Shown here: in pieces, positions 15,208-24,972 of the stretch | Layout of the letters: each line of letters begins with the position of its first letter | How positions within the stretch are numbered: position 1 is the stretch's first letter | DNA from: Echinicola arenosa | GTDB taxonomy: Bacteria > Bacteroidota > Bacteroidia > Cytophagales > Cyclobacteriaceae | NCBI RefSeq assembly: GCF_014841125.1 | Contig: NZ_JACYTQ010000002.1 | Coordinates: forward strand, 186,001 to 250,000 | Direction of reading: 5' to 3' | Length of the DNA: 64,000 bases | Made by a program: the position numbers and the translations under genes | Notes under the pieces: generated by a model | Told to the model about the DNA's origin: nothing | Database searches by the model: none | What the model saw: only the letters and a program-made list of their open reading frames with translations

Positions 15208-15672
15208 TTATTCAATCTTAATACTCAACCCCTGCAAGGTCTGCCATCCCTCCTGATCTGTCAGGCGGATCATGAAATGATAATCGCCAGGATCTATATC
15301 AGCAGGAATTTCGATTTCAGCGGTACCCACATATTCTGTCAAACCCTCAGGAATAGTAAATGTCTGAATCAACAACAGCGGATTCACCGGCGTTTTGATC
15401 GGATCCTCATTGCAGCTATTCACCTCTGTACTATGGGTATGGTGATCAAAATTGTGATGAATATCCAAACTATAACTTCCCAACTCCACATTGTCTGAGA
15501 AATATGCCTTGAACTCCAAAGTTGTCCCCCGCTCAATTACGCTGCATTGCAGAGGAAATGAATCATCCTCTACCAGTATCTCCGGATATTCTGTATCAAT
15601 CAGGGGCTTTTCATCCTCCCCACAGGAAGCAAGAAAAATCATCATTAAAATAAATAGTCGCCAATTTTTCAT
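15208..15672 (-). CDS. DUF4625-type lipoprotein, zinc-regulon partner of the TonB receptor
   Basis: A 154-residue lipoprotein: signal MKNWRLFILMMIF followed by the lipobox LASC, so the mature protein is tethered to a membrane facing the periplasm or the surface. The domain matches the beta-sandwich DUF4625 pattern of the larger lipoprotein at 18830: YPEILVEDDSF, RGTTLEFKAYFSDN, SYSLDIHHNFDHHTHS, and IPADIDPGDYHFMIRLTDQEGW. The DIHHNFDHHTHS segment has five His and could bind zinc. It overlaps the 3' end of the TonB receptor gene if the upstream ATG at 15699 is used; the ATG at 15672 gives the cleaner signal. It probably captures zinc or helps load the receptor; this is inference. Confidence 0.78.
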   Translation of the reverse strand: MKNWRLFILMMIFLASCGEDEKPLIDTEYPEILVEDDSFPLQCSVIERGTTLEFKAYFSDNVELGSYSLDIHHNFDHHTHSTEVNSCNEDPIKTPVNPLLLIQTFTIPEGLTEYVGTAEIEIPADIDPGDYHFMIRLTDQEGWQTLQGLSIKIE

Positions 15673-15688
15673 ATTATTCGATTGGATT

Positions 15689-17932
15689 TTAGAATTCATA
15701 ACTTAAGGATACACTGATATTCCTGCCGGCTTCTGGCAAATTGATCAGTCGATAGAAACTCGTGTGGTTCAGGTATCGGGTATTGAAGAGATTTTGGACT
15801 TGAAGGTCAGTCTGGATTTCCTGTCCGAAAACCGAAATAGCCGATCCGGCCCGTAGATTCACCAACTGATAGCCTGGGGTTACTTTCTCAGGAGGCACAA
15901 TGTTTTCCTGTCTGGCGGTAGCTCTGAAATCCACTGCGAAGTAAGGATTACTGAAAAAACCTTCCGTCAAAGGCTTGTAGGTGGCATTGATAATCCCTGA
16001 TGTAGGCGGTGAAAAAGGCAAGGTAAATCCTTGCTTGTCTCCTGACTTCTGCTCGCTGTACACATATTCTCCCAGCAACTCAAAACTCCATTTCGAATTC
16101 AACTGATACAATGCACTCAGTTCGGCTCCGTAGCGCAAAACTTCCGCCTGAGTATAGTTGAAAACCTGATTTCCGGCACCATAGAGCACATCCATTTCGG
16201 CAGTAGGGTTGAGGTAAATGTAATTGGAGAAATAATTCACAAAGGGACTAAAGGAAAGCAGCCACTTTTCTTTCTTCAACTCCCCTCCAAGGTCAAGTTG
16301 CAGGGAACGCTCAGGATCTAAGTTTGCGTTGCCCCGCTCATAGCGGAAATAGTGATAATTCACCCCATTTGCCGCCAACTCCTTCGCAATGGGCATGCGG
16401 AAACTGGTTCCAACATTTGCCTTCAGCACCAAATCTCCCGGATTATAATTCACCCCCACTGACCAAACCAAGCTGTTGAATTTACGCTGAAATTCCTCTG
16501 CCCTGAATAGGTAATCATCTTCAGTCGCTTGAGAAGCATCTTCCACACTCGGAAACCAATCCTGATATTCCTCCACATGGATCTGACTATGATCAAAGCG
16601 AAGGGCAGCTGTCAGTTGCCAAAGCGGAGTCAGTTTGTACTTATCGATCGCAAAAAAACCATAACTATATTGTTGAAATGCCGGAATCAAAAATCCCCAA
16701 CCGCCAATATCATTGTGCTGGTATTCACCACTGGCACCAAATCCCAGCTCATGTCGGTCCAAAAAAATTTCGTCTTTCACGTTTATGGAAAACACCTCTT
16801 TATCAAATGCCCGCTCCTGGTTCGACGGATAAAGCATCTCAGCCGGGTAGATGGCAGGCATATAGCCATGGTTGACATACTGGCTCCACTCCTTTCTGTC
16901 ATTTCTCTGATAGCCGAGATCCAGTTGGAGAAAATTTTTTCCGGCCGCATAGCTGACTTTATTGATCACTTTGGTATGCGTCACTTCCTGAAAAGGCAGA
17001 AGAATATCCCGACTGGAACGGTCATGAAGCCCCGTATCCACCTGCCTTGGCTCCAATCCGTGGGCATTGGCAAAGAAACCTGCTTTGGTACTTACTCTAC
17101 TCACTCCAAGTGTATTCCGGAAATTCTTCCCCAGAAATCCTACCCTAGTTGAAAAATCAAGTTCCTGCCCGGCAGAATTTCTGACTTGCCCCTCGTGTAA
17201 GGCTACACCAAAATCATAAACAAACACAGAGTCTGTAGGAACTCTAAAGTCCCCATAATCAGCCACTGTCAGCCTACCTTCGGCAAACCAGTTGTTTTTT
17301 CTGTAAAATACATTGGCTGAACCTCCAAACCAGCCATTGTTGGATCGGGCACCGAGCTCGACTGAACCCCCGAAACCATCTTCAGCTGGTGCCAGTTTTT
17401 CCCGGATATCGATCACTCCTCCTATCGCATCAGAACCATATTTGAAGGAAGCCGGACCTTTGATTATTTGAATCTGATCAGCGGCAAATTGATCCACTTC
17501 TAGCCCATGATCCGCTCCCCATTGTTGGCCTTCATGTTTAAGCCCATTTTCCACTACCATGACCTGATTGAACCCCAGTCCACGGATCAAAGGTTTGGAG
17601 GCTCCCGAACCTATTCCTATCATGCTGATACCTGGAATTCTTTCCAAAGACTTCATCAAACTCCCACTTCGGTTTTCCCGAATAAAATCTTGCTTGATCA
17701 GCTCTACATTGTTGGACTCCTCCCTTCTGATCATCTCTGCCTGATCAATGACCACCACCTCTTCGAGTTCTTGAATTCTGGGGAAAGTATCCAATTTAGC
17801 AGGAATAACAGTATCCCAACGCCTTTGAGCTTGCCCTTCAGTACTATCAAGATAAGTAGCTTCTAAAAGGCGCTGTTCTGGGACATAGCTAAAAGAAAGT
17901 AAACTAGTAACAAAGAGTAAAAGATAGGTCAT
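15689..17932 (-). CDS. TonB-dependent outer membrane receptor, probable zinc importer
   Basis: A 747-residue receptor from the ATG at 17930-17932, which gives a signal peptide MTYLLLFVTSLLSFSY; an upstream in-frame ATG at 17986 lies before the predicted transcription start and is unlikely. The plug domain (about residues 65-180) shows MKSLERIPGISMIGIG, KPLIRGLGFNQVMVVENG and IIKGPASFKYGSDAIGGVIDI. The remainder is a 22-strand-type barrel ending in a terminal Phe (SLSYEF). Its promoter carries Zur-type operator sites, and it is divergent from the regulator gene and followed by a His-rich lipoprotein. By analogy with ZnuD-type receptors it probably imports zinc or a zinc complex. Copper or a metallophore remain alternatives. 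Confidence 0.88.
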   Translation of the reverse strand: MTYLLLFVTSLLSFSYVPEQRLLEATYLDSTEGQAQRRWDTVIPAKLDTFPRIQELEEVVVIDQAEMIRREESNNVELIKQDFIRENRSGSLMKSLERIPGISMIGIGSGASKPLIRGLGFNQVMVVENGLKHEGQQWGADHGLEVDQFAADQIQIIKGPASFKYGSDAIGGVIDIREKLAPAEDGFGGSVELGARSNNGWFGGSANVFYRKNNWFAEGRLTVADYGDFRVPTDSVFVYDFGVALHEGQVRNSAGQELDFSTRVGFLGKNFRNTLGVSRVSTKAGFFANAHGLEPRQVDTGLHDRSSRDILLPFQEVTHTKVINKVSYAAGKNFLQLDLGYQRNDRKEWSQYVNHGYMPAIYPAEMLYPSNQERAFDKEVFSINVKDEIFLDRHELGFGASGEYQHNDIGGWGFLIPAFQQYSYGFFAIDKYKLTPLWQLTAALRFDHSQIHVEEYQDWFPSVEDASQATEDDYLFRAEEFQRKFNSLVWSVGVNYNPGDLVLKANVGTSFRMPIAKELAANGVNYHYFRYERGNANLDPERSLQLDLGGELKKEKWLLSFSPFVNYFSNYIYLNPTAEMDVLYGAGNQVFNYTQAEVLRYGAELSALYQLNSKWSFELLGEYVYSEQKSGDKQGFTLPFSPPTSGIINATYKPLTEGFFSNPYFAVDFRATARQENIVPPEKVTPGYQLVNLRAGSAISVFGQEIQTDLQVQNLFNTRYLNHTSFYRLINLPEAGRNISVSLSYEF

Positions 17933-17943
17933 GTGAAGTAAAA

Positions 17944-17958
17944 TGCAATTACATTGCA
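17944..17958. promoter_or_regulatory. Zur-box-like operator A (TonB receptor promoter)
   Basis: TGCAAT-TAC-ATTGCA is a perfect 6-3-6 inverted repeat. It overlaps the -7 element of the receptor promoter by two bases, so a bound regulator would block RNA polymerase. Sites of the same form recur at six further places in this island. Confidence 0.8.
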
Positions 17959-17986
17959 AATATACAAACACAACCACATGAAACAA
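17957..17986 (-). promoter_or_regulatory. Promoter of the TonB receptor
   Basis: On the minus strand, TTG (17984-17986), 19 bases, then TATATTTG (17957-17964) match the Bacteroidota consensus TTG-N19-21-TAnnTTTG exactly. Transcription would start near 17950, leaving a leader of about 18 bases to the ATG at 17932. Confidence 0.75.
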
Positions 17987-17993
17987 TGTTGCA
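17979..17993. promoter_or_regulatory. Imperfect Zur-box-like operator B
   Basis: TGAAAC-AAT-GTTGCA is a 6-3-6 repeat with one mismatched pair. It covers the TTG elements of both divergent promoters (receptor and regulator). Confidence 0.5.
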
Positions 17994-18019
17994 TTAAAAA
18001 ATAATGATTTTTATATTTG
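17989..18019 (+). promoter_or_regulatory. Promoter of the Fur-family regulator
   Basis: TTG (17989-17991), 20 bases, then TATATTTG (18012-18019) match the Bacteroidota consensus. The start site would fall near 18026, inside the large palindrome, giving short-leader, autoregulated expression. Confidence 0.75.
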
Positions 18020-18043
18020 CAATAGTATTGCAAATATAAAAAT
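18007..18043. promoter_or_regulatory. 37-bp perfect palindrome containing Zur-box-like operator C
   Basis: Centred on G18025, the arms 18007-18024 and 18026-18043 are exact reverse complements. The core at 18018-18032 is TGCAAT-AGT-ATTGCA. It covers the end of the -7 element and the start site of the regulator gene, and ends three bases before its ATG. This is the strongest operator of the set and points to autorepression. Confidence 0.85.
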
Positions 18044-18046
18044 ATA

Positions 18047-18421
18047 ATGGGAAACACCATCGCTAGAACAAAAATCCACAAAATAATCAGAGAGTCAGTT
18101 CATCCAATTACTTACAGTGAAATAAAAAAGCAAATGGATGGTTCCTGTAGCAGGGTTACCATTTATCGCATTCTATTACGAATGGAAAAAGATAAACTGA
18201 TTCTAAGGTTTCCAGATGCGAATGGAGACTTCCGCTATTTTTCCTGCAAAGATAAAGGCACCCCCCGTTCTGAACACAGCCACTTTCACTGTCTCCAATG
18301 TGATAAGGTCTTAAGTTTAGACTCAAAAAACCTTAAAACTTTTGTTCCAACAGCGTTTTTGACTCAGTCCATCAGTTTTCTGGCTTCTGGAATTTGCCCG
18401 AATTGTTGTTCGACAAAATAA
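18047..18421 (+). CDS. zur: Fur-family metalloregulator, probable zinc uptake regulator Zur
   Basis: A 124-residue Fur-family protein. The winged helix (residues about 5-65) includes ITYSEIKKQM and the recognition helix SCSRVTIYRILLRMEKDKLI. The dimerisation domain has the regulatory-metal stretch HSHFHCLQC (His77, His79, His81, Cys82, Cys85) and a C-terminal CPNCC (Cys117, Cys120) that would complete a structural Cys4 zinc site. At 124 residues it is at the short end for Fur proteins. It is divergent from the TonB receptor across a palindrome-rich promoter region. The operators (TGCAAN3-like palindromes, unlike GATAATG Fur boxes) and the COG0523 GTPases in the putative regulon favour Zur over Fur, PerR or Nur. 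Confidence 0.85.
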   Translation: MGNTIARTKIHKIIRESVHPITYSEIKKQMDGSCSRVTIYRILLRMEKDKLILRFPDANGDFRYFSCKDKGTPRSEHSHFHCLQCDKVLSLDSKNLKTFVPTAFLTQSISFLASGICPNCCSTK

Positions 18422-18573
18422 ACGAAGGGTTTTTAATAGGAATGTATCTGCATGTATTTAAACCAATCTTTTGTACATATTTTCAATTTTGGATTACCAG
18501 GATATTACTCCACCCCAACACCTGTAGGCAGCTTCCTTCTCATAATATTCTATTTACCGCTTAAATAATCTTA

Positions 18574-18604
18574 TTGACACCGCTTGCATTTGCAACTATA
18601 TTGC
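18574..18604 (+). promoter_or_regulatory. Promoter of the double-DUF4625 lipoprotein
   Basis: TTG (18574-18576), 20 bases, then TATATTGC (18597-18604) fit the Bacteroidota promoter pattern with one deviation. The -7 element lies inside operator D, which implies repression by the same regulator. Confidence 0.6.
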
Positions 18605-18605
18605 A
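18591..18605. promoter_or_regulatory. Zur-box-like operator D
   Basis: TGCAAC-TAT-ATTGCA is a 6-3-6 inverted repeat with only the innermost pair unmatched. It overlaps the -7 element of the lipoprotein promoter. Confidence 0.7.
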
Positions 18606-18614
18606 TAATATTTG

Positions 18615-18629
18615 CGCAATATTGTTGCA
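18615..18629. promoter_or_regulatory. Zur-box-like operator E
   Basis: CGCAAT-ATT-GTTGCA keeps the 6-3-6 layout, with two mismatched pairs (outermost and innermost). It lies just after the predicted start site, 24 bases from operator D. Confidence 0.55.
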
Positions 18630-18829
18630 ACAATAAAAAACCTATTACTCATCTATATTCTTTGTTATGAAAGAACAAATGAAAACACATCAAGCTGATA
18701 GACCAAATTGTATAATCAACCTTTCCTTAACGGCTTTTCAACCTTGGCGTTATTGAATGTAGTTGTAGAAAATTTGGACACGTATTTTGAAAACTTTTTG
18801 AACCTATAACAAATTTATATTACGCAAAA

Positions 18830-19609
18830 ATGAAAAACATGAACAAATTAAAACACGTATTTCTGATTTCCCTTTTGGGAATGGCCCTGTTCTCCTGCCA
18901 GGATGACGAGGACCAGACCTTTGACGCGCCGGTAATTTCTTCTTTTGAGTTTGGAGAAGGTGGATCTCATTCTACTGATGGCACAGCATATCGTGGCTCT
19001 GACCTACATATGGAAGCTGAAATCCTTGCGCAAGCAACTGTAGCCTCCATTACAGTATCCATCCATGGACATGATATTGAAGTGGGTGAAGGTGAAACCG
19101 AGTGGGACTTTTCCGAAACTTTTACAGATGAGAAGTACATGGTGAAAAACCCTACCTTTCATGAGCATATTGATATCCCTGCAACAGCTCCTGCGGGAGA
19201 GTATCATGTAGTACTGGAAGTTACTGATGCTGTTGGAAACACCACTGAAGTGGAAGGCCACTTAGAGGTAACGTCTCCTGTGACCATCAGTGATTTTGAA
19301 ATGGATGAAACCGTAGTTCGTGGATCTGATTTCCATGTAGAATTTATGATCGATGCCATGTATGGAATTCATAATATAACAGTTGATATCCATGCCCATG
19401 GATTGACACCAGGAGCAGGTGAAGTAGAGTGGGATTTTGAAGAAGAATTCGAAGAAGGCTACCATGAGTTAACAGAAGCAGAATTCCATGAGCACATCGA
19501 TGTTCCAGCCACAGCTCCCGCAGGAGAGTATCACGTGATATTTACCGTGGAAGATGAAGAAGGAAATACTGTAGTATATGAATCACACATTGATGTGACA
19601 GCCAACTGA
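18830..19609 (+). CDS. Lipoprotein with two tandem DUF4625 domains, His/Glu-rich
   Basis: A 259-residue lipoprotein with lipobox LFSC (Cys23). After it come two homologous beta-sandwich repeats, about residues 33-147 and 150-257. Each repeat has RGSD (55-58, 164-167), an IHxH segment (78-81, 187-190), a GExEWDF segment (88-94, 197-203), and FHEHID.PATAPAGEYHV (110-127, 219-236). The His and acidic residues are among the best-kept positions, as expected for metal binding. It has its own promoter with two operator-like sites and ends at a strong terminator. It is probably a periplasmic or surface zinc-binding protein made under zinc limitation. DUF4625 has no established function that I know of. 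Confidence 0.85.
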   Translation: MKNMNKLKHVFLISLLGMALFSCQDDEDQTFDAPVISSFEFGEGGSHSTDGTAYRGSDLHMEAEILAQATVASITVSIHGHDIEVGEGETEWDFSETFTDEKYMVKNPTFHEHIDIPATAPAGEYHVVLEVTDAVGNTTEVEGHLEVTSPVTISDFEMDETVVRGSDFHVEFMIDAMYGIHNITVDIHAHGLTPGAGEVEWDFEEEFEEGYHELTEAEFHEHIDVPATAPAGEYHVIFTVEDEEGNTVVYESHIDVTAN

Positions 19610-19625
19610 TACTGATATGGCCTTT

Positions 19626-19670
19626 AAAAGAAACGGAGCTGATAGTTTAATCAGCTCCGTTTCTTTTTTT
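19626..19670. terminator. Bidirectional intrinsic terminator
   Basis: A 17-bp perfect stem (arms 19627-19643 and 19650-19666) with a six-base loop, A-rich before and T-rich after. It serves the plus-strand lipoprotein and probably also the convergent minus-strand operon ending at 19690. Confidence 0.9.
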
Positions 19671-19689
19671 AAATTCACTTTCTTATTCC

Positions 19690-20123
19690 CTATTGATAAA
19701 CTGTAGCATTTTCCAAGATATAGTTACACTGATAGATATCCGTTGCATTGAGTTTGAGCTTACCTTTGAAGGTCATTATTTCATCCATAACAAACCTTGG
19801 ATGATCCTTGGGTACTTTTAACTCAATAATGGATTCCGGTCCAGCTCCCCCACAGAAAAAACAAGCTGCAAAGGGATTGGCGGAAAGGATAAAGATATCC
19901 TCACCCGGATCGATTTCCAGCAAGAACCCTTGAATGACCACTTCCTTACCGTTCAGCTCCAGTACTGAAGGACCGAACTTGGGAAAGTAATAGTAGGCAT
20001 CCACCTCTTTGCTATATTTGTCGATAAACTTCACATCCTTTAATGTATCCCAAGTAATCCTGGTCTGGCTGTAAGCTGTAAAGCCAGCTAAGCAAATAAA
20101 ATAACTAAACTTCTTCTAAGCAT
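19690..20123 (-). CDS. Periplasmic CFFCGG-motif protein, frameshifted in its signal peptide
   Basis: The continuous frame from GTG at 20034 encodes 114 residues with EVVIQGFLLEID, LSANPFAACFFCGGAGPES and a C-terminal beta-rich segment. Upstream in the same frame lies SYFICLAGFTAYSQTRITWD, the end of a signal peptide, but that frame has no start codon. In the next frame the ATG at 20121-20123, overlapping the permease stop, reads MLRRSLVILFA and then hits TAG. Adding one base in that codon region would join the two halves into a normal secreted protein of about 145 residues. So either the gene has a one-base deletion or the sequence has an error. The CxxC pair could bind metal or be redox active. 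It is last in the ATPase-permease operon. Confidence 0.7.
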
Positions 20124-21474
20124 CTGACAAACTCTTTGATATATCTATTCTATAAACTGAAATGGCCGGGATAAGCGCTGAAAGAAAACCTATTGCCAAT
20201 GTCACAATGAACAAATACCCCTCTCCCAAAATCGGCCCGGCTTCCAAAAAATCATAATGGTATTCTGATTTAAGTAAGACAGACATCAATAACAGCCCAA
20301 GCCTACTGAAAATCAAACCTATTACAAACCCTGAAATCGCTATCAATAGTCCTTCCTGAAACATCATTCCCAGCAACTGGAACCTAGAGGCCCCATAGGT
20401 TCTCAAAAGCGCCATCTCGTAAGTACGCTCTCTCAAGCCCAAGTACAGGCTGATGAAAACGCTGATGCCTGAAACCAGGATCACAATCAGGGCCACCATA
20501 TTTAATGAAGTTGTAGCTATCCCCATCAGACTAAAGAGTTTTGTCAATTCATAATTGGGCAAGGCGGCCTGCATATTGGTATTTTCATTGACCATACGCG
20601 GAAGTTGCACCAAACCCAAAGGGTTTTTAAACTTAACCAACAAGGCAGTAATCTCGCGATCTTCCTCATGGTGATGGTGCTCGCCCTCTTCCTCATGGTG
20701 ATGATGTCCGACTTCCTCCTCATGCCCATGACCATGGTCGTGAACATGAGCTGCTTCATCTCCTTCGGCATGTTCCACACTTGCTACCGTATGATCATGG
20801 TGATCTTCTCCAATATCTTCTGAATGAACCTCTTCATGTTCCCCTTCATCATGCTCGTGACTCTCATGGATATCCCATACGCTCTGGATATCCGTCAGGA
20901 TCAACTGATCAACCACAGAACCCGAAGCTTCAAATACTCCCTTTACCACATAAGCCTGGTCATCATGTACATGACCGCCTTCCATCAAGCCATGGGAGCC
21001 GTGAAATGTATCCCCAACTTTTAAACCTGTCTTTCTTGCCACTGCAGCTCCAATGGTAACTTCCATGGATTTCCCCCACAGTTTACCTTCGGCAAGATTC
21101 ATCGAATAGTTTTCAGGATACCTTTTATCGGTTCCTACAATACGAAAGCCTGAATAGGAATCACCATAGGAAAGAGGAATCCCGTAATCGATCAACCTGT
21201 TTTTCAAGAGCGTGTTGGCTTCGGAAAGTTGGATGTTTCCAGTCGGAACATCAACCTGGAATACAGCTGATAAAATCAATTGAAGAGGACTTCCCTTTGC
21301 ACCCACCACCATATCAATACCACGTATATTGGAATTCATCTGTTCCTTGAGGTGTTTGTCGATATGCAGCATAAGAGAAATCAAACCTACCCCCAGGGAT
21401 AACAGCAGGAGACTCAGCCCTGTAGAAAGAGGTTTGGCAGTCACATTTTTAATACTCAATCGGAAAATATTCAT
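20116..21474 (-). CDS. FtsX/MacB-like ABC permease with a histidine-rich periplasmic loop
   Basis: A 452-residue permease with the LolCE/MacB layout: an N-terminal TM helix (about residues 17-37), a large periplasmic domain, then three C-terminal helices in the FtsX domain (about 317-342, 365-395, 415-440), including YLGLRERTYEMALLRTYGASRFQLLGMM. Inserted in the periplasmic domain at residues 203-270 is an extreme His/Glu tract with 22 His, including two HHHH runs; HGSHGLMEGGHVHDD at 158-172 adds more. Such tracts are typical of zinc or nickel handling. The partner ATPase starts upstream with a five-base gap, and an operator-bearing promoter drives both. It may move zinc-bearing proteins or zinc between periplasm and envelope rather than act as a classic ZnuB. 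Confidence 0.88.
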   Translation of the reverse strand: MNIFRLSIKNVTAKPLSTGLSLLLLSLGVGLISLMLHIDKHLKEQMNSNIRGIDMVVGAKGSPLQLILSAVFQVDVPTGNIQLSEANTLLKNRLIDYGIPLSYGDSYSGFRIVGTDKRYPENYSMNLAEGKLWGKSMEVTIGAAVARKTGLKVGDTFHGSHGLMEGGHVHDDQAYVVKGVFEASGSVVDQLILTDIQSVWDIHESHEHDEGEHEEVHSEDIGEDHHDHTVASVEHAEGDEAAHVHDHGHGHEEEVGHHHHEEEGEHHHHEEDREITALLVKFKNPLGLVQLPRMVNENTNMQAALPNYELTKLFSLMGIATTSLNMVALIVILVSGISVFISLYLGLRERTYEMALLRTYGASRFQLLGMMFQEGLLIAISGFVIGLIFSRLGLLLMSVLLKSEYHYDFLEAGPILGEGYLFIVTLAIGFLSALIPAISVYRIDISKSLSDA

Positions 21475-21479
21475 GGGAT

Positions 21480-22136
21480 TCAGATAGGGATAACTACTTT
21501 GTTTTGTTCGGACAAGGTTATGGATACAGTAAACGCTGACTTTAACCTCTGGTCATGGGTAATGATGATCAGGCTGGATTTGGATTTTTTGGTCTGATCT
21601 TTCAAAAGCGCTACCACCCTTTGGCAGTTTTTATCATCCAGTGCAGCGGTCGGTTCATCAGCCAAAATCAACTTGGGTCGGTTAATGACCGCCAGGGCAA
21701 TGGCTGCCCGCTGCTGCTCTCCCTGAGATAGTTGACGAGGATAGCTCTTAAGCTTTCCCAAAAGACCTAGGTCATCCAACACTTTTTTGATTTGGTAGGA
21801 ATCATGGGGCTTTTGGGCCAAATATTGGATCATTCCCAAATTTTCTTCCAATGTAAGTGCTTGGATAAAATGGGGACGTTGAAAGACAATGCCAACATTG
21901 GCACCTCTGAATATATCCAATTGCCTGCCCGTCAACTTGGAAATGTCCGTTTCTCCAATTTTAATATTACCGGTCTTTGGTTTCAAAAGCCCAGCAATCA
22001 GGTGCAAAAACGTGGTTTTGCCAATACCGGACTCTCCTAGGATCAGTAATTCCGAACCTTCAGAAACCGATAGGTCTGGAAATTCAAATTGATTGTTTTC
22101 ATTGTACTCAAATGAAACCGAACGTGTGGTGATCAT
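21480..22136 (-). CDS. ABC transporter ATP-binding protein (LolD/MacB type)
   Basis: A 218-residue ATPase. Walker A is GESGIGKTT, the Q-loop lies in GIVFQRPHF, the signature is LSQGEQQR, Walker B is LILADEPTAALD and the H-loop is ITHD. The compact length is usual for LolD/FtsE/MacB-type ATPases paired with FtsX-like permeases. I start it at ATG 22134-22136 (MITTRSVSFEY); the longer frame back to a TTG at 22187 would begin upstream of the predicted transcription start. It energises the His-rich permease encoded five bases downstream. Its promoter overlaps operator F. Confidence 0.88.
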   Translation of the reverse strand: MITTRSVSFEYNENNQFEFPDLSVSEGSELLILGESGIGKTTFLHLIAGLLKPKTGNIKIGETDISKLTGRQLDIFRGANVGIVFQRPHFIQALTLEENLGMIQYLAQKPHDSYQIKKVLDDLGLLGKLKSYPRQLSQGEQQRAAIALAVINRPKLILADEPTAALDDKNCQRVVALLKDQTKKSKSSLIIITHDQRLKSAFTVSITLSEQNKVVIPI

Positions 22137-22157
22137 ATTCTTAAGATTTGGCCAATA

Positions 22158-22187
22158 CAAAGCTAGGAATAAATTCTTTATTTGCAA
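22158..22187 (-). promoter_or_regulatory. Promoter of the ABC operon
   Basis: On the minus strand TTG (22185-22187), 19 bases, then TAGCTTTG (22158-22165) match the Bacteroidota consensus. The start site would be near 22150, which decides the ATPase start at 22136. Confidence 0.7.
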
Positions 22188-22197
22188 TAATGTTGCA
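22183..22197. promoter_or_regulatory. Zur-box-like operator F
   Basis: TGCAAT-AAT-GTTGCA, a 6-3-6 inverted repeat with the innermost pair unmatched. It covers the TTG elements of both the ABC promoter (minus) and the MerC promoter (plus). Confidence 0.75.
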
Positions 22198-22223
22198 TTT
22201 AATTCAGTAAACGATTAATATTG
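22193..22223 (+). promoter_or_regulatory. Promoter of the MerC-GTPase operon
   Basis: TTG (22193-22195), 20 bases, then TAATATTG (22216-22223) fit the Bacteroidota consensus with one mismatch. It lies between operators F and G, about 30 bases before the MerC ATG. Confidence 0.65.
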
Positions 22224-22236
22224 CAACATAATTGCA
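22222..22236. promoter_or_regulatory. Zur-box-like operator G
   Basis: TGCAAC-ATA-ATTGCA, a 6-3-6 inverted repeat with the innermost pair unmatched. It touches the -7 element and covers the expected start site of the MerC operon. Confidence 0.75.
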
Positions 22237-22251
22237 TTAACGTTTTCTTTT

Positions 22252-22723
22252 ATGAAAAATTCCTTTGTGGGCATCCATCTGGATTTTATCGGATTTTCTG
22301 CTTCAGTGGCCTGTGCCATACATTGCGTAGCGCTACCTTTTTTGATCAGTGTCCTTCCCTTTATTGGCTTGGGTTTCTTAATGAATCACTGGATTGAGTA
22401 CAGTGTGATCCTGCTAAGTTTCTTCTTGGCAGTCTTTGCACTTTCCCATGGGTTCTGGAACCATCACCGCAATTCCCTTGCTATTGGTCATTGTGGGATT
22501 CGGAATCATCTCGGCTGGACTAATCTTTGGCCATGGTGCAGAAGGGCATCTCATTTCTCCTACTGGTCCGCTTCATTTGATCGACAAAAACAAACATGCA
22601 CTATCCATCGAACATTTCATTACTCCATTTGGAGCTTTGGTAGTGAGCCTAGGCCATTATATTAATTGGCACTATATAAAAAAATCAAAAACCGGCTGTG
22701 CTGCCGGTGGAAATTTAGAATAA
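22252..22723 (+). pseudogene. MerC-domain membrane protein gene with a one-base frameshift
   Basis: The first frame (from ATG 22252) gives a typical MerC start: GFSASVACAIHCVALPFLISVLP with the CxxHC metal motif, then MNHWIEYSVILLSFFLAVFALSHGF. Around 22460-22475 the MerC-like reading moves to the +1 frame (ITAIPLLLVIVGFGIISAGLIFGHG, then HFITPFGALVVSLGHYINWHYIKK) and ends at 22723. The remaining first frame turns into non-hydrophobic noise. Together the two frames make a normal four-helix MerC protein of about 155 residues. The gene therefore has one extra base, is mis-sequenced, or uses frameshifting. MerC-domain proteins move Hg(II) or other soft metals; within this zinc regulon a zinc role is inferred. 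The GTPase starts eight bases later. Confidence 0.75.
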
Positions 22724-22730
22724 TCATTCC

Positions 22731-23924
22731 ATGCAAAACAAAATTCCTGTAACCGTACTGAGTGGCTTTCTGGGTGCTGGCAAAACAACTCTTCTTAACC
22801 ATATCCTTCAAAACCGGGAAGGGTACAAGGTCGCTGTGATAGTAAATGATATGAGTGAGGTAAATGTGGATGCAAAGCTGGTCCAAAATGAAATAAAGCT
22901 GAGTAGAACAGAAGAAAAACTTATTGAGATGTCCAATGGCTGTATCTGCTGCACATTAAGGGAAGACCTTATTGAGGAAGTACAAAAGCTTGCCCTTCAA
23001 AGGAAGTTTGACTATCTCCTGATCGAAAGCACAGGTATTTCCGAACCCATTCCTGTAGCGCAGACCTTCTCTTTCGAAACGGGGGACAGCCTGCTGGACC
23101 TTTGCCATATCAGTAGGCTGGACACCATGGTAACCGTTGTGGATGCTTTTAATTTCTTCAATGACTTTGGTTCTGCAGAGACCATTCTTGATAGACAAAT
23201 GACAGATGACCCGGAGGACGCAAGGTCTATCGTCAATCTACTTACAGATCAGGTAGAATTTGCCAATGTTATCATCCTTAACAAAACCGACCTGGTTTCA
23301 GAAGAACAGCTAAAGCTTCTGGAAGGACTATTGATCAAACTTAATCCGGAGGCAAAGATCATCCGGTCATCCTATGGACAGGTAAGCACCAAAGAAGTGG
23401 TGGACACTGGTCTGTTCGATTACTACAAAGCGGAGCAGGCAGCTGGCTGGCTCAAGGAACTGAACAAGGAACATGTTCCGGAAACTGAAGAATACGGCAT
23501 CAGCAGTTTTGTGTTTAGGGATCACAGACCCTTCCACCCAGGAAGGTTCTGGAACTATATCCGTAATTCCTGGCCAACTAATGTAGTAAGAAGCAAAGGG
23601 CTTTTTTGGCTGGCATCCAGGCCTCATCAGGCTCTATTGTGGAGTCAGGCCGGTGGCTCATTGAAGGCAGAAATCTTTGGCAATTGGTGGGCCGCATACG
23701 CTGAAAAAGAGCGACTGAACAACCCTGGTTATGTAGAAAACAGGGATTTGATAGCCGAAAAATGGGATCGCCAATACGGTGATCGTATGAACGAGCTGGT
23801 AATCATAGGCCAGGATTTGGATGAGGAAAACATCTCAAACCAGCTTAGGAAATGCTTGGTTACTGAAAATGACAGCAAAAACTTCAACCTTAATACCCAA
23901 TTAAAAGATGAATGGCCCCTTTAG
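22731..23924 (+). CDS. COG0523 (CobW/ZigA-type) zinc GTPase chaperone 1
   Basis: A 397-residue G3E GTPase. Walker A GFLGAGKT sits at residues 12-19, the metal-binding motif CICC at 71-74, the ESTGISEP switch at about 101-108, and the guanine-recognition NKTD at 184-187. A CobW C-terminal domain follows ([20 protein letters not shown], about residues 260-375). This is the ZigA/ZagA/YciC class that delivers zinc to client proteins during zinc starvation. It lies eight bases after the MerC gene in the operon controlled by operators F and G. All GTPase motifs are intact. Confidence 0.92.
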
Positions 23925-23994
23925 GAATTAGAAAACCTATATCAAGTAATTTAGGAAACCTCAAATCCCTACACTGACTTAAACTCAACAGCAT

Positions 23995-24972
23995 ATGACA
24001 CTGCCAACACCTCCATCCAAAATCAAGGTCTACCTCCTGACAGGTTTTTTGGGGGCCGGAAAAACCACAGTTTTAAACGGCCTTTTACAGGCCAAGAAAG
24101 ACGAGGAGAACATCATTATTGAAAATGAATTTGGCAAAGTGTCCATCGACTCCCATTTGGTTGAAACAAGGTATTGCTCCCTTTTCGAAATGAACAATGG
24201 CTGCATTTGCTGTACACTGGACAATGAATTGGTGGAAGTCCTGGCTTCCATTCTCAATGCGGAGGTACAACCGGACAACCTTTTTATTGAAGCTTCCGGC
24301 GTGGCTGATCCTGGTGGAATAATAGCACTTTTTAGCCAAGAAGAGGTCGCCAACTTCTTCCAGCTCCATCAGGTAGTTTGCGTAGTGGATGCTACGGTAG
24401 TGGAAGACTGGATGGAAGAAATTCCTGAGGTCAGTCGACAGCTGGCTGCTGCGGATTTGATTGTACTGAATAAAAAATCCTTGGTATCCCCCTCTTACCT
24501 GCCTCAGCTCACACAACTGGTACAAGGTGTCAATTCCCTTGCAGAGATAATGGTTACCGACCATGGAATTATTCCCCATGATATTCTCACCAAACAGAAA
24601 AAACCTTGGGACCCTGCCAAAACCATCCCTGAAGTAGAAGCCAAATCTCCGCATCCTTTGAAGAGCATGTTGTTTGAAGTGGAAGAACTGATCGACCGGG
24701 AAATGCTGCTCAATCAGCTCACCCTGTCCTTCTTCCTGAGCTATCATCAACTTTACAGGATGAAGGGCTTGGTGTGGCTTTCCGATAGTACTCTTCCCCA
24801 TATAGTCCAAACACATGGCAGACAAGTGCATATTGCCCCCTTGGAAGGCGAGGTAAAATTGCCCTATCCCAAATCCCAATTGATTTTTATTGGCAAGGGG
24901 CTTGAACGAAAATCACTGGAGAGAAAAATTCAAAGAACGCTAGCATCCCAAAAATCCAATTCAAAATTATAA
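23995..24972 (+). CDS. COG0523 (CobW-type) GTPase 2 with altered NKxD motif
   Basis: A 325-residue second G3E GTPase. Walker A GFLGAGKT is at residues 17-24 and CICC at 70-73 ([12 protein letters not shown]); EASGVADPGG follows at about 100-109. The base-recognition motif reads NKKS at 159-162 instead of NKxD, so the Asp that selects guanine is missing. The C-terminal domain is shorter than that of its neighbour and lacks a His-rich tail. It is only about 30% like the first GTPase by eye, so they look like old paralogues with different clients, not a recent duplication. The gene lies 70 bases after the first GTPase and probably shares its transcript. Confidence 0.88.
   Translation: MTLPTPPSKIKVYLLTGFLGAGKTTVLNGLLQAKKDEENIIIENEFGKVSIDSHLVETRYCSLFEMNNGCICCTLDNELVEVLASILNAEVQPDNLFIEASGVADPGGIIALFSQEEVANFFQLHQVVCVVDATVVEDWMEEIPEVSRQLAAADLIVLNKKSLVSPSYLPQLTQLVQGVNSLAEIMVTDHGIIPHDILTKQKKPWDPAKTIPEVEAKSPHPLKSMLFEVEELIDREMLLNQLTLSFFLSYHQLYRMKGLVWLSDSTLPHIVQTHGRQVHIAPLEGEVKLPYPKSQLIFIGKGLERKSLERKIQRTLASQKSNSKL

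Follow-up and report, generated by a model that had tools for sequence, protein, structure and literature searches.

A compact group of ten genes in Echinicola arenosa raises the question of how a member of the Bacteroidota obtains zinc when this metal is scarce. The genes lie within a 64,000-nucleotide stretch of DNA, which was analysed as a whole and is referred to as the window. An earlier note had proposed that they form a zinc-starvation island of little-described parts under one operator. Open reading frames and Pfam and NCBIfam profile searches confirm ten genes of the claimed types at 15208–24972 (Table 1), and comparison of DUF4625 operons, ZigA loci and gene co-occurrence supports a zinc-starvation island under one operator. 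The gene set is real and conserved, and to judge from these sequence comparisons it most likely serves the scavenging of scarce zinc. Most of its parts resemble known zinc-starvation genes.

Gene order and conservation

The earlier note had counted four divergent units sharing one operator. The shared operator stands, and the units number five: DUF4625a alone and two divergent pairs. Most or all of the island is present in Algoriphagus iocasae, A. oliviformis and one further genome (G323). In the 19.9 kb read of G477, a genome of the same genus, MerC, ZigA and two operators are kept and the second GTPase is shortened. The receptor, the permease and DUF4625 give nothing above 30 bits in this stretch, and the ABC unit is represented by a 75-aa piece of the ATPase only.

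Table 1. Genes and operator sites of the island, with positions in the window.
Feature	Position	Strand	Basis or remark
DUF4625b, one-domain lipoprotein	15208..15699	-	PF15418, E 1.5e-37
TonB-dependent receptor, ZnuD-like	15689..17986	-	PF00593/PF07715
Operator TGCAATTACATTGCA	17944..17958		5' end of receptor gene; perfect fit to TGCAAYNNNRTTGCA
Operator TGCAATAGTATTGCA	18018..18032		immediately 5' of Fur-family regulator gene; perfect fit
Fur-family regulator, possibly Zur	18047..18421	+	PF01475, E 2.4e-8
Operator TGCAACTATATTGCA	18591..18605		5' of DUF4625a; perfect fit
Second, degenerate operator CGCAATATTGTTGCA	18615..18629		one mismatch to TGCAAYNNNRTTGCA
DUF4625a, two-domain lipoprotein	18830..19609	+	PF15418, two stretches, E 5.7e-58
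CFFCGG periplasmic protein, DUF3299-like, 5' end of frame broken	19690..20034	-	PF11736, below cut-off
MacB/FtsX-type permease, 22-His periplasmic loop	20116..21474	-	PF02687, PF12704
LolD/FtsE-type ABC ATPase	21480..22187	-	PF00005; TIGR02673 and TIGR02211 best, below cut-off
Operator TGCAATAATGTTGCA	22183..22197		between ABC unit and MerC; perfect fit
Operator TGCAACATAATTGCA	22222..22236		5' of MerC; perfect fit
MerC-family membrane protein, broken frame	22252..22723	+	PF03203, positions 1-66 of 108
ZigA-like COG0523 zinc GTPase	22731..23924	+	NF038288, 559.7 bits
Second COG0523/CobW GTPase	23995..24972	+	PF02492, PF07683

Two genes of the window have broken frames, which may reflect gene decay or sequencing error. 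MerC is split into two overlapping frames (22252–22665 and 22436–22723), and the CFFCGG frame has neither an in-frame ATG nor a signal peptide. Both genes are intact in loci L110 and L111, and MerC also in L278. The steps assigned to these two proteins may thus fail in this genome, unless the breaks are sequencing errors. An island that is decaying and partly non-functional here would account for the breaks as well as for the reduced cluster of G477. We consider this unlikely: the other eight genes are open with their family domains present, the operators are in place, and in a draft of 20 contigs an isolated frame break may stem from a sequencing error.

A palindromic operator shared by zinc genes

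Five sites at the island promoters fit the 15-bp palindrome TGCAAYNNNRTTGCA perfectly, and a sixth nearly so. The 5.39-Mb genome has 10 sites of the exact form TGCAAN5TTGCA, and 5 of these fall in a 4.3-kb section of the island; two of the five outside it also match the Y/R consensus. With a looser pattern of 17 letters and 3 mismatches, the window as a whole shows no excess of sites (17 vs 15.7 expected), and the case for an operator therefore draws on the exact form and on its conservation. A named genome collection yielded 488 DUF4625-related loci. Among the best 80 of these, which are dominated by Flavobacterium and come from related, non-independent genomes, 66 have the palindrome, perfect or one mismatch away, 5' of the DUF4625/TonB-receptor operon (−1200 to +120), vs 0/80 for the control, the same sequence read backwards. 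The other 14 operons lack it at that threshold, which counts against a zinc island. The search pattern does not constrain position 6; counted over both halves of 60 distinct sites, this letter is C or T in 96%.

The perfect palindrome also lies near ZigA genes in 21 of 28 loci of family relatives (reversed control 0/28); a 29th locus, L277, with a weak partial match, was left out of the scan. Counted against the zinc reading, of the 29 ZigA loci that the phylum sample offers once the window's own locus is set aside, 15 have no operator even at one mismatch, and 13 of these 15 belong outside the window's class. Taken on this comparative basis, TGCAAYNNNRTTGCA is very probably a zinc (Zur) operator, and it can serve in the search for zinc regulons across the Bacteroidota. 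An operator-like site at C20 was rejected as a member of the regulon; it is probably a chance occurrence, since the downstream gene lacks it in all 24 loci of relatives. A long untranslated leader between the operator and DUF4625a in Flavobacterium was likewise discarded, as the loci read hold a gene for a small CxxC protein there.

The island's Fur-family protein is divergent. A Cys that we presume to be the sensory one, its position being assigned from Zur sequences, is present in the window copy and in L110, L116, L094 and L106; it is absent from the Fur-family neighbours of L111, L112, L115, L146, L176 and L185. The divergence and the missing Cys in relatives both count against the zinc reading. 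Two Zur-like paralogues in the same genome (L004 and L006) keep the presumed sensory Cys, and either could be the real repressor instead of the island protein. The role of the sensory Cys in Zur has been described (PMC6103462). The paper on a zinc regulator of the Bacteroidota that was found concerns ZntR (PMC11960050).

Proposed zinc capture at the outer membrane

DUF4625 adjoins one ZnuD-like receptor type in 78 of the best 80 loci, and the pairing recurs in 12 of the 14 genomes that pass the DUF4625 cut-off when the phylum is sampled evenly. The genomic tie of DUF4625 to zinc genes has become much stronger. The lipobox Cys is followed by QDDED in DUF4625a and by GEDE in DUF4625b. DUF4625a-type frames with a lipobox have at least two acidic residues at +2 to +6 in 79/87 cases, an acidic stretch resembling published surface-export signals (PMC5080379). 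Export signals are weaker in DUF4625b, where 46/78 such frames have fewer than two acidic residues at these positions, a point counted against surface export; the lipobox search behind both counts made a few visibly wrong calls. For DUF4625b, an alignment of 49 sequences has invariant His, Asp and Cys columns, and a conserved loop reads HHNFDHHTH. The AlphaFold model of DUF4625b is a beta sandwich (pLDDT 84.6) with the His loop at low confidence. The fold was set aside as a clue to function, its Foldseek matches being diffuse and Ig-like (best E 1e-4, TM on query length 0.35–0.53, among the 50 matches listed). DUF4625 is a candidate zinc-catching partner of the receptor. No publication naming DUF4625 was found in the literature searched, consistent with its earlier description as undescribed. 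The candidate role gives a family of previously unknown function a testable one, zinc capture beside an outer-membrane zinc receptor.

The cluster could alternatively serve another metal or chelate (haem, iron, cobalt, nickel), with the receptor importing the chelate, the MacB-type ABC unit exporting the ligand and the Fur-family regulator sensing that metal. Among the NCBIfam models the receptor scores slightly higher as TonB-hemin (151.7 bits) than as ZnuD (NF038289, 134.6 bits, cut-off 950), both far below cut-off. A comparable operon of P. aeruginosa has been argued to export cobalt-pyochelin (PMC11481552), and COG0523 proteins are diverse (PMC2770081). This alternative is nevertheless improbable. 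Among solved structures the receptor's best relative is clearly ZnuD (E 7.1e-19; next 4.6e-9), the same operator accompanies ZigA in most of the family relatives, and a Pfam/NCBIfam scan detects no metallophore synthesis family among the ten proteins. Zinc is preferred as the metal because of this relationship to ZnuD and the score of the ZigA-like GTPase (Table 1).

The ABC unit and the CFFCGG protein

The permease loop holds 22 His by count on the translation, as the earlier note had claimed. The permease has YtrF, YbbP and MacB as solved relatives. A His-rich loop is found in 7/30 permease loci, and its tie to the operator is weak (one-sided p 0.047); this counts against the zinc reading, and the His-rich permease was dropped as a mark of operator control. 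PF11736 (DUF3299) is the most frequent family among CFFCGG members (6/12, below cut-off, best E 7e-4), and the window piece reaches E 0.043 and 14.3 bits against a cut-off of 22. The predicted CFFCGG model is OB-like at low confidence, with no fold match at E 0.001. Proof of DUF3299 membership through solved structures failed, the PA4066 chain, described as OB-like, being absent from the sequence-profile matches (E up to 10) and from the 50 fold matches listed.

Instead of transporting zinc, the ABC unit of a zinc-regulated cluster might also be a LolCDE-like machine for lipoproteins or envelope maintenance, standing in for a zinc-sensitive step. Its ATPase is nearest to FtsE/LolD models, and a paralogous trio elsewhere in the genome (L064) has no operator and a low His count. 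The CFFCGG gene lies near the permease in at least 18/30 loci, a lower bound as the sequence of some loci ends 1.5 kb beyond the match; most of the 18 are without operator, so that the trio is not zinc-only. We regard this as a somewhat unlikely explanation. The 22-His loop suggests metal handling, and growth under zinc limitation falls on loss of ZrgA in Vibrio or of the Zrg-type permease in Pseudomonas, mostly in strains already lacking other zinc uptake (PMC9820375, PMC9817125, PMC11481552).

MerC, the GTPases and ZnuABC

The phylum sample of 296 genomes is taken as the same set for the DUF4625, MerC, ZnuA and ZigA searches, the genome labels agreeing wherever they are listed. In it, 29 genomes have both MerC and ZigA vs 12.4 expected, the window's own locus left out. 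MerC adjoins ZigA in 7 and CFFCGG in 9 of 28 family ZigA loci. MerC genes are often found close to Fur-family regulators or ZigA. Of 30 MerC loci, those that score highest among 102 genomes, 15 have a Fur-family gene, a related receptor or the permease no more than about 1.5 kb away. A MerC in a Zur regulon had been called undescribed; no publication on one was found, as judged by titles and abstract openings, and the genomic linkage is supported. A family named for mercury thus gains a candidate zinc role. The names Bacteroidetes and Bacteroides are absent from the main text of a comparative COG0523/Zur study (PMC2770081).

ZnuABC is indeed missing from the window. The genome holds one PF01297 protein, encoded in a run with an ATPase and an ABC-3 permease that carries a DtxR-type repressor domain (PF02742) as a fusion; a separate frame in the run is read as DtxR/MntR-like. 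The run is not under the operator, the closest exact match of operator type (any spacer of 3 to 9) lying about 29 kb away on that contig. The earlier note had suggested that the ABC unit and MerC may replace ZnuABC or may load zinc onto lipoproteins. MerC is negatively associated with ZnuA (24/102 MerC genomes vs 106/194 others, relatedness uncorrected), DUF4625 has no significant association with it (ZnuA in 4/14 DUF4625 genomes vs 126/282 others), and the genome has two ZIP-family genes. Absence of ZnuA was accordingly rejected as a property of DUF4625 genomes.

A proposed route for zinc

The gene content, operator, conservation and linkage come from comparison, and we infer the roles of the proteins from them. 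We think it probable that the island is held under Zur-type repression through TGCAAYNNNRTTGCA and provides a zinc route from DUF4625 through the receptor, ABC unit and MerC to the GTPases. Repression would lift when zinc is scarce. DUF4625 lipoproteins on the cell surface may then catch zinc by the His-rich loop and pass it to the ZnuD-like receptor for entry into the periplasm. There a Zrg-like MacB-type module, made up of the ATPase, the His-loop permease and a protein that is probably OB-fold/DUF3299-like, would handle zinc or a zinc ligand. Passage of zinc through the inner membrane may fall to MerC, and its distribution in the cytoplasm to the two COG0523 GTPases. A wider proposal is more doubtful and offered tentatively: that the Bacteroidota might possess their own complete zinc route without ZnuABC, leading from surface DUF4625 through a dedicated TonB receptor, a His-loop MacB-type ABC unit and MerC to ZigA-type GTPases, with TGCAAYNNNRTTGCA as a lineage-specific Zur box.

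Comparison with known systems

The ABC part is largely described already. The FtsX-like transporter had been held to be undescribed in a Zur regulon, yet ZrgABCDE of Vibrio and PA4063–PA4066 of Pseudomonas comprise a Zur-regulated LolD/MacB-type ATPase, a separate four-TM MacB-like permease, a DUF3299-type protein and a His-rich element (PMC9820375, PMC9817125, PMC11481552, PMC8561739). The island likewise has a LolD-like ATPase, a separate MacB/FtsX permease, a His-rich stretch and putative Zur control, and its small periplasmic CFFCGG protein may be DUF3299-like. It differs in that the His-rich stretch lies within the permease, that the DUF3299 match of CFFCGG is below cut-off, and that DUF4625, MerC and a TonB receptor accompany the ABC unit; ZrgA (DUF2796) has no Pfam match among the ten proteins.

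The ZigA-like GTPase resembles the ZigA and COG0523 zinc metallochaperones, matching NF038288 over its full length, but stays under the equivalog cut-off of 600 bits, as do 30 of 36 phylum-sample genomes matching at E 1e-60. MerC is a mercury uptake protein, and the island protein shares its family (PF03203); the Fur-family, receptor or permease neighbours in 15 of the 30 MerC loci set it apart. Like ZnuD and other Zur-regulated TonB zinc receptors, such as ZnuK and ZnuL of Caulobacter (PMC4176598), the island receptor stands under a Zur-type operator. Unlike ZnuD-type receptors, it is encoded with a lipoprotein partner and falls below the ZnuD model cut-off.

In the BtuB-BtuG and SusC-SusD pairs, a TonB receptor is encoded beside a surface lipoprotein. 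The island resembles them in that one receptor type adjoins a lipoprotein with a surface-export-like signal. DUF4625 is of another family than BtuG and SusD, Ig-like with a His-rich loop, and its putative pairing with the receptor is seen here as gene adjacency. If the proposed role is true, DUF4625 and its receptor would be a metal case of the receptor and surface-lipoprotein strategy known in the Bacteroidota for sugars and vitamin B12.

Organization of the island and its operator

All ten genes that the earlier note assigned to the island were found at or near the coordinates it named, and the observation as a whole was confirmed, with corrections, among them that MerC and the CFFCGG gene are not intact. 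One divergent pair sets the receptor and DUF4625b against the Fur-family regulator, and another sets the ATPase, the permease and CFFCGG against MerC and the two COG0523 GTPases, ZigA and CobW2. DUF4625a stands apart from both, with an operator pair of its own. In the window, the MerC coding sequence is spread over two frames that overlap; the CFFCGG gene has neither an in-frame ATG nor a signal peptide. Both genes are intact in Algoriphagus iocasae and A. oliviformis, and MerC is open in G477, a genome of the same genus as the window. Just beyond the island lies an ORF that we take to encode an AraC-like regulator.

Six copies of the palindrome occur at island promoters, five perfect and one with a single mismatch. 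The exact form, TGCAAN5TTGCA, has 10 sites in the 5.39-Mb genome, 5 of them inside the island. Another, on contig C14, lies directly upstream of a DUF6660 protein gene, which is followed by a 1465-aa ORF, presumably an RND-type efflux gene, then by one more gene and by a Zur-like Fur paralogue (L006). This is possibly a metal efflux unit belonging to the island's regulon. The lone operator on contig C20 precedes a gene for a B12-binding radical SAM protein; none of 24 relatives' loci keeps it, and it is probably there by chance.

Coordinates of operators and of genes discussed in the text
Feature	Location	Strand	Remark
Perfect operators	window, cores 17944, 18018, 18591, 22183, 22222		fit TGCAAYNNNRTTGCA
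Operator with one mismatch	window, core 18615		against TGCAAYNNNRTTGCA
AraC-like ORF	window:14181-14750
C14 operator, perfect	G000:C14:514130-514144 (L008:9131-9145)		TGCAATGGGATTGCA
C20 operator, perfect	G000:C20:129614-129628 (L007:5615-5629)
Reduced island, G477	L278:8192-11270
Second ABC trio, own genome	L064:8528-10837
Small CxxC protein gene	L100:10329-10679	-
Small CxxC protein gene	L143:8784-9134	+
Small CxxC protein gene	L149:9187-9537	+
Small CxxC protein gene	L144:6165-6563	+

Conservation across Bacteroidota

An alignment of DUF4625b, searched against the collection of named genomes, yielded 488 confirmed loci, of which the best 80 were retained. Among named genomes, the best match to the window's DUF4625b is that of A. 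iocasae (92% identity); judged by this one gene, Algoriphagus or a near relative is the probable source of the window. Among these best 80 of 488, the receptor type (at least 250 bits to the window receptor) is present in 78, and an additional DUF4625 protein likewise in 78. The remaining genes are rarer in the same 80 loci: the regulator was found in 8, ZigA, CFFCGG and MerC in 3 each, and the permease, ATPase and CobW2 in 2 each. The receptor-DUF4625 unit is therefore widespread; the full island does not share this wide distribution. Among 296 genomes sampled evenly over the phylum, DUF4625 exceeds the cut-off in 14, and the receptor adjoins it in 12 of these (our own genome and 11 of 13 others). 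Of 16 regions that were read, 11 hold exact operators.

The operator's exact form is present in 49 of the best 80 of 488 DUF4625b loci, with 85 sites in total, against a chance level of 4 to 10 sites in five first-order Markov simulations. When -1200 to +120 around operon starts was scanned in the best 80 of 488 loci, a perfect operator was found in 46 and one with a single mismatch in 20 (66/80), and the reversed sequences gave none in 80.

The fullest islands belong to A. iocasae (L110), A. oliviformis (L111), in whose locus the second GTPase was not seen, and genome G323 (L094). By coordinates, MerC and the regulator of L094 are transcribed divergently and an operator separates them; L106 has these two genes arranged likewise. 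The G477 locus retains ZigA, MerC and two operators; its ATPase is reduced to a 75-aa piece and the second GTPase of that genome appears interrupted, so within the genus the island is prone to change.

Evidence for zinc

The reading of the island as a zinc-starvation system is well supported by sequence comparison. Against the ZigA model, whose cut-off is 600, the window protein reaches 559.7 bits. Of 28 family relatives, 21 have a perfect operator inside the ZigA locus, taken with flanks of about 1.5 kb; the reversed loci had none. In the wider phylum sample, the operator is present in 14 of 29 ZigA loci when one mismatch is allowed and in 8 when none is, and the reversed control again gave 0; 13 of the 15 operator-less loci fall outside the window's class. 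The receptor's top solved relative is ZnuD (E 7.1e-19; runner-up 4.6e-9), although among the NCBIfam models TonB-hemin scores slightly above ZnuD, both far under cut-off. The combination of receptor, COG0523 protein and Fur-family regulator resembles Zur regulons described in two publications (PMC6103462, PMC4176598), the former of which places 7-1-7 palindromes among the usual Zur box types.

Against the zinc reading, the neighbouring regulator is divergent, and the presumed sensory Cys is missing in L111, L112, L115, L146, L176 and L185; the own-genome paralogues L004 and L006 retain it. Judged from these residues, the operator may be bound by the neighbouring regulator or, alternatively, by either paralogue.

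MerC is found in 102 of the 296 sampled genomes. The best 30 MerC loci include an exact operator in 8, a Fur-family neighbour in 10, a related receptor in 3 and the permease in 2, and in the 28 family loci MerC lies beside ZigA in 7 and CFFCGG in 9. By counts that ignore relatedness, MerC occurs with ZigA in 29 genomes (12.4 expected) and with ZnuA in 24 (44.8 expected). The sole ZnuA-family protein of our own genome adjoins DtxR-type repressor sequences and an ABC-3 permease sequence, with no exact operator-type match within about 29 kb. The genome also has two ZIP genes, and MerC is thus not its sole possible zinc importer.

DUF4625 lipoproteins

As far as the literature searched shows, the pairing of DUF4625 with the receptor is new, and so is the operator; no mention of DUF4625 was found there. 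In DUF4625b, invariant His, Asp and Cys residues form a core around the motifs HHNFDHHTH and GDYH. Its predicted structure is a beta sandwich (pLDDT 84.6) with the His loop at low confidence, and the Foldseek matches listed are diffuse Ig-like folds. A lipobox is present in 87 of 92 DUF4625a-type ORFs and 78 of 80 DUF4625b ORFs, and two or more acidic residues follow at +2 to +6 in 79 of 87 and 32 of 78, respectively. Published surface-export signals comprise a polar or basic residue and then acidic residues (PMC5080379). DUF4625 would be a cell-surface partner that catches zinc for the TonB receptor.

In several Flavobacterium loci, and also in Mucilaginibacter, a small CxxC protein (about 116-132 aa) is encoded between the operator and the DUF4625/receptor genes; three members scanned gave no family match above cut-off.

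The ABC module

Thirty permease loci were compared, the own paralogue and 29 from relatives: 23 have the ATPase close by and 18 have CFFCGG. In 7, an operator is present with no more than one mismatch (reversed control 0), and local His density is only weakly higher there (one-sided p 0.047). A second ATPase-permease-CFFCGG trio of the own genome (L064) is low in His and lacks the operator; trios of this kind are frequent in the order. The candidate transporter may import or export.

CFFCGG is probably related, at a distance, to DUF3299, which matched 6 of 12 family members (best E 7e-4; runner-up family 2). As modelled by AlphaFold (pLDDT 64.5), the A. iocasae protein has an OB-like look, and a fold search with the model gave a best E of 6.5e-3 and no hit at 0.001. 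PA4066 is described as OB-like.

The earlier note regarded an FtsX-like transporter in a Zur regulon as undescribed. This is not supported, an ABC transporter being an already known kind of member: ZrgABCDE, which aids Vibrio growth under zinc limitation, joins an ABC ATPase to a MacB-like permease encoded separately and to small periplasmic proteins. The ten island proteins gave no match to DUF2796, one of the parts that define Zrg. The module may therefore work like Zrg but is not classed with it.
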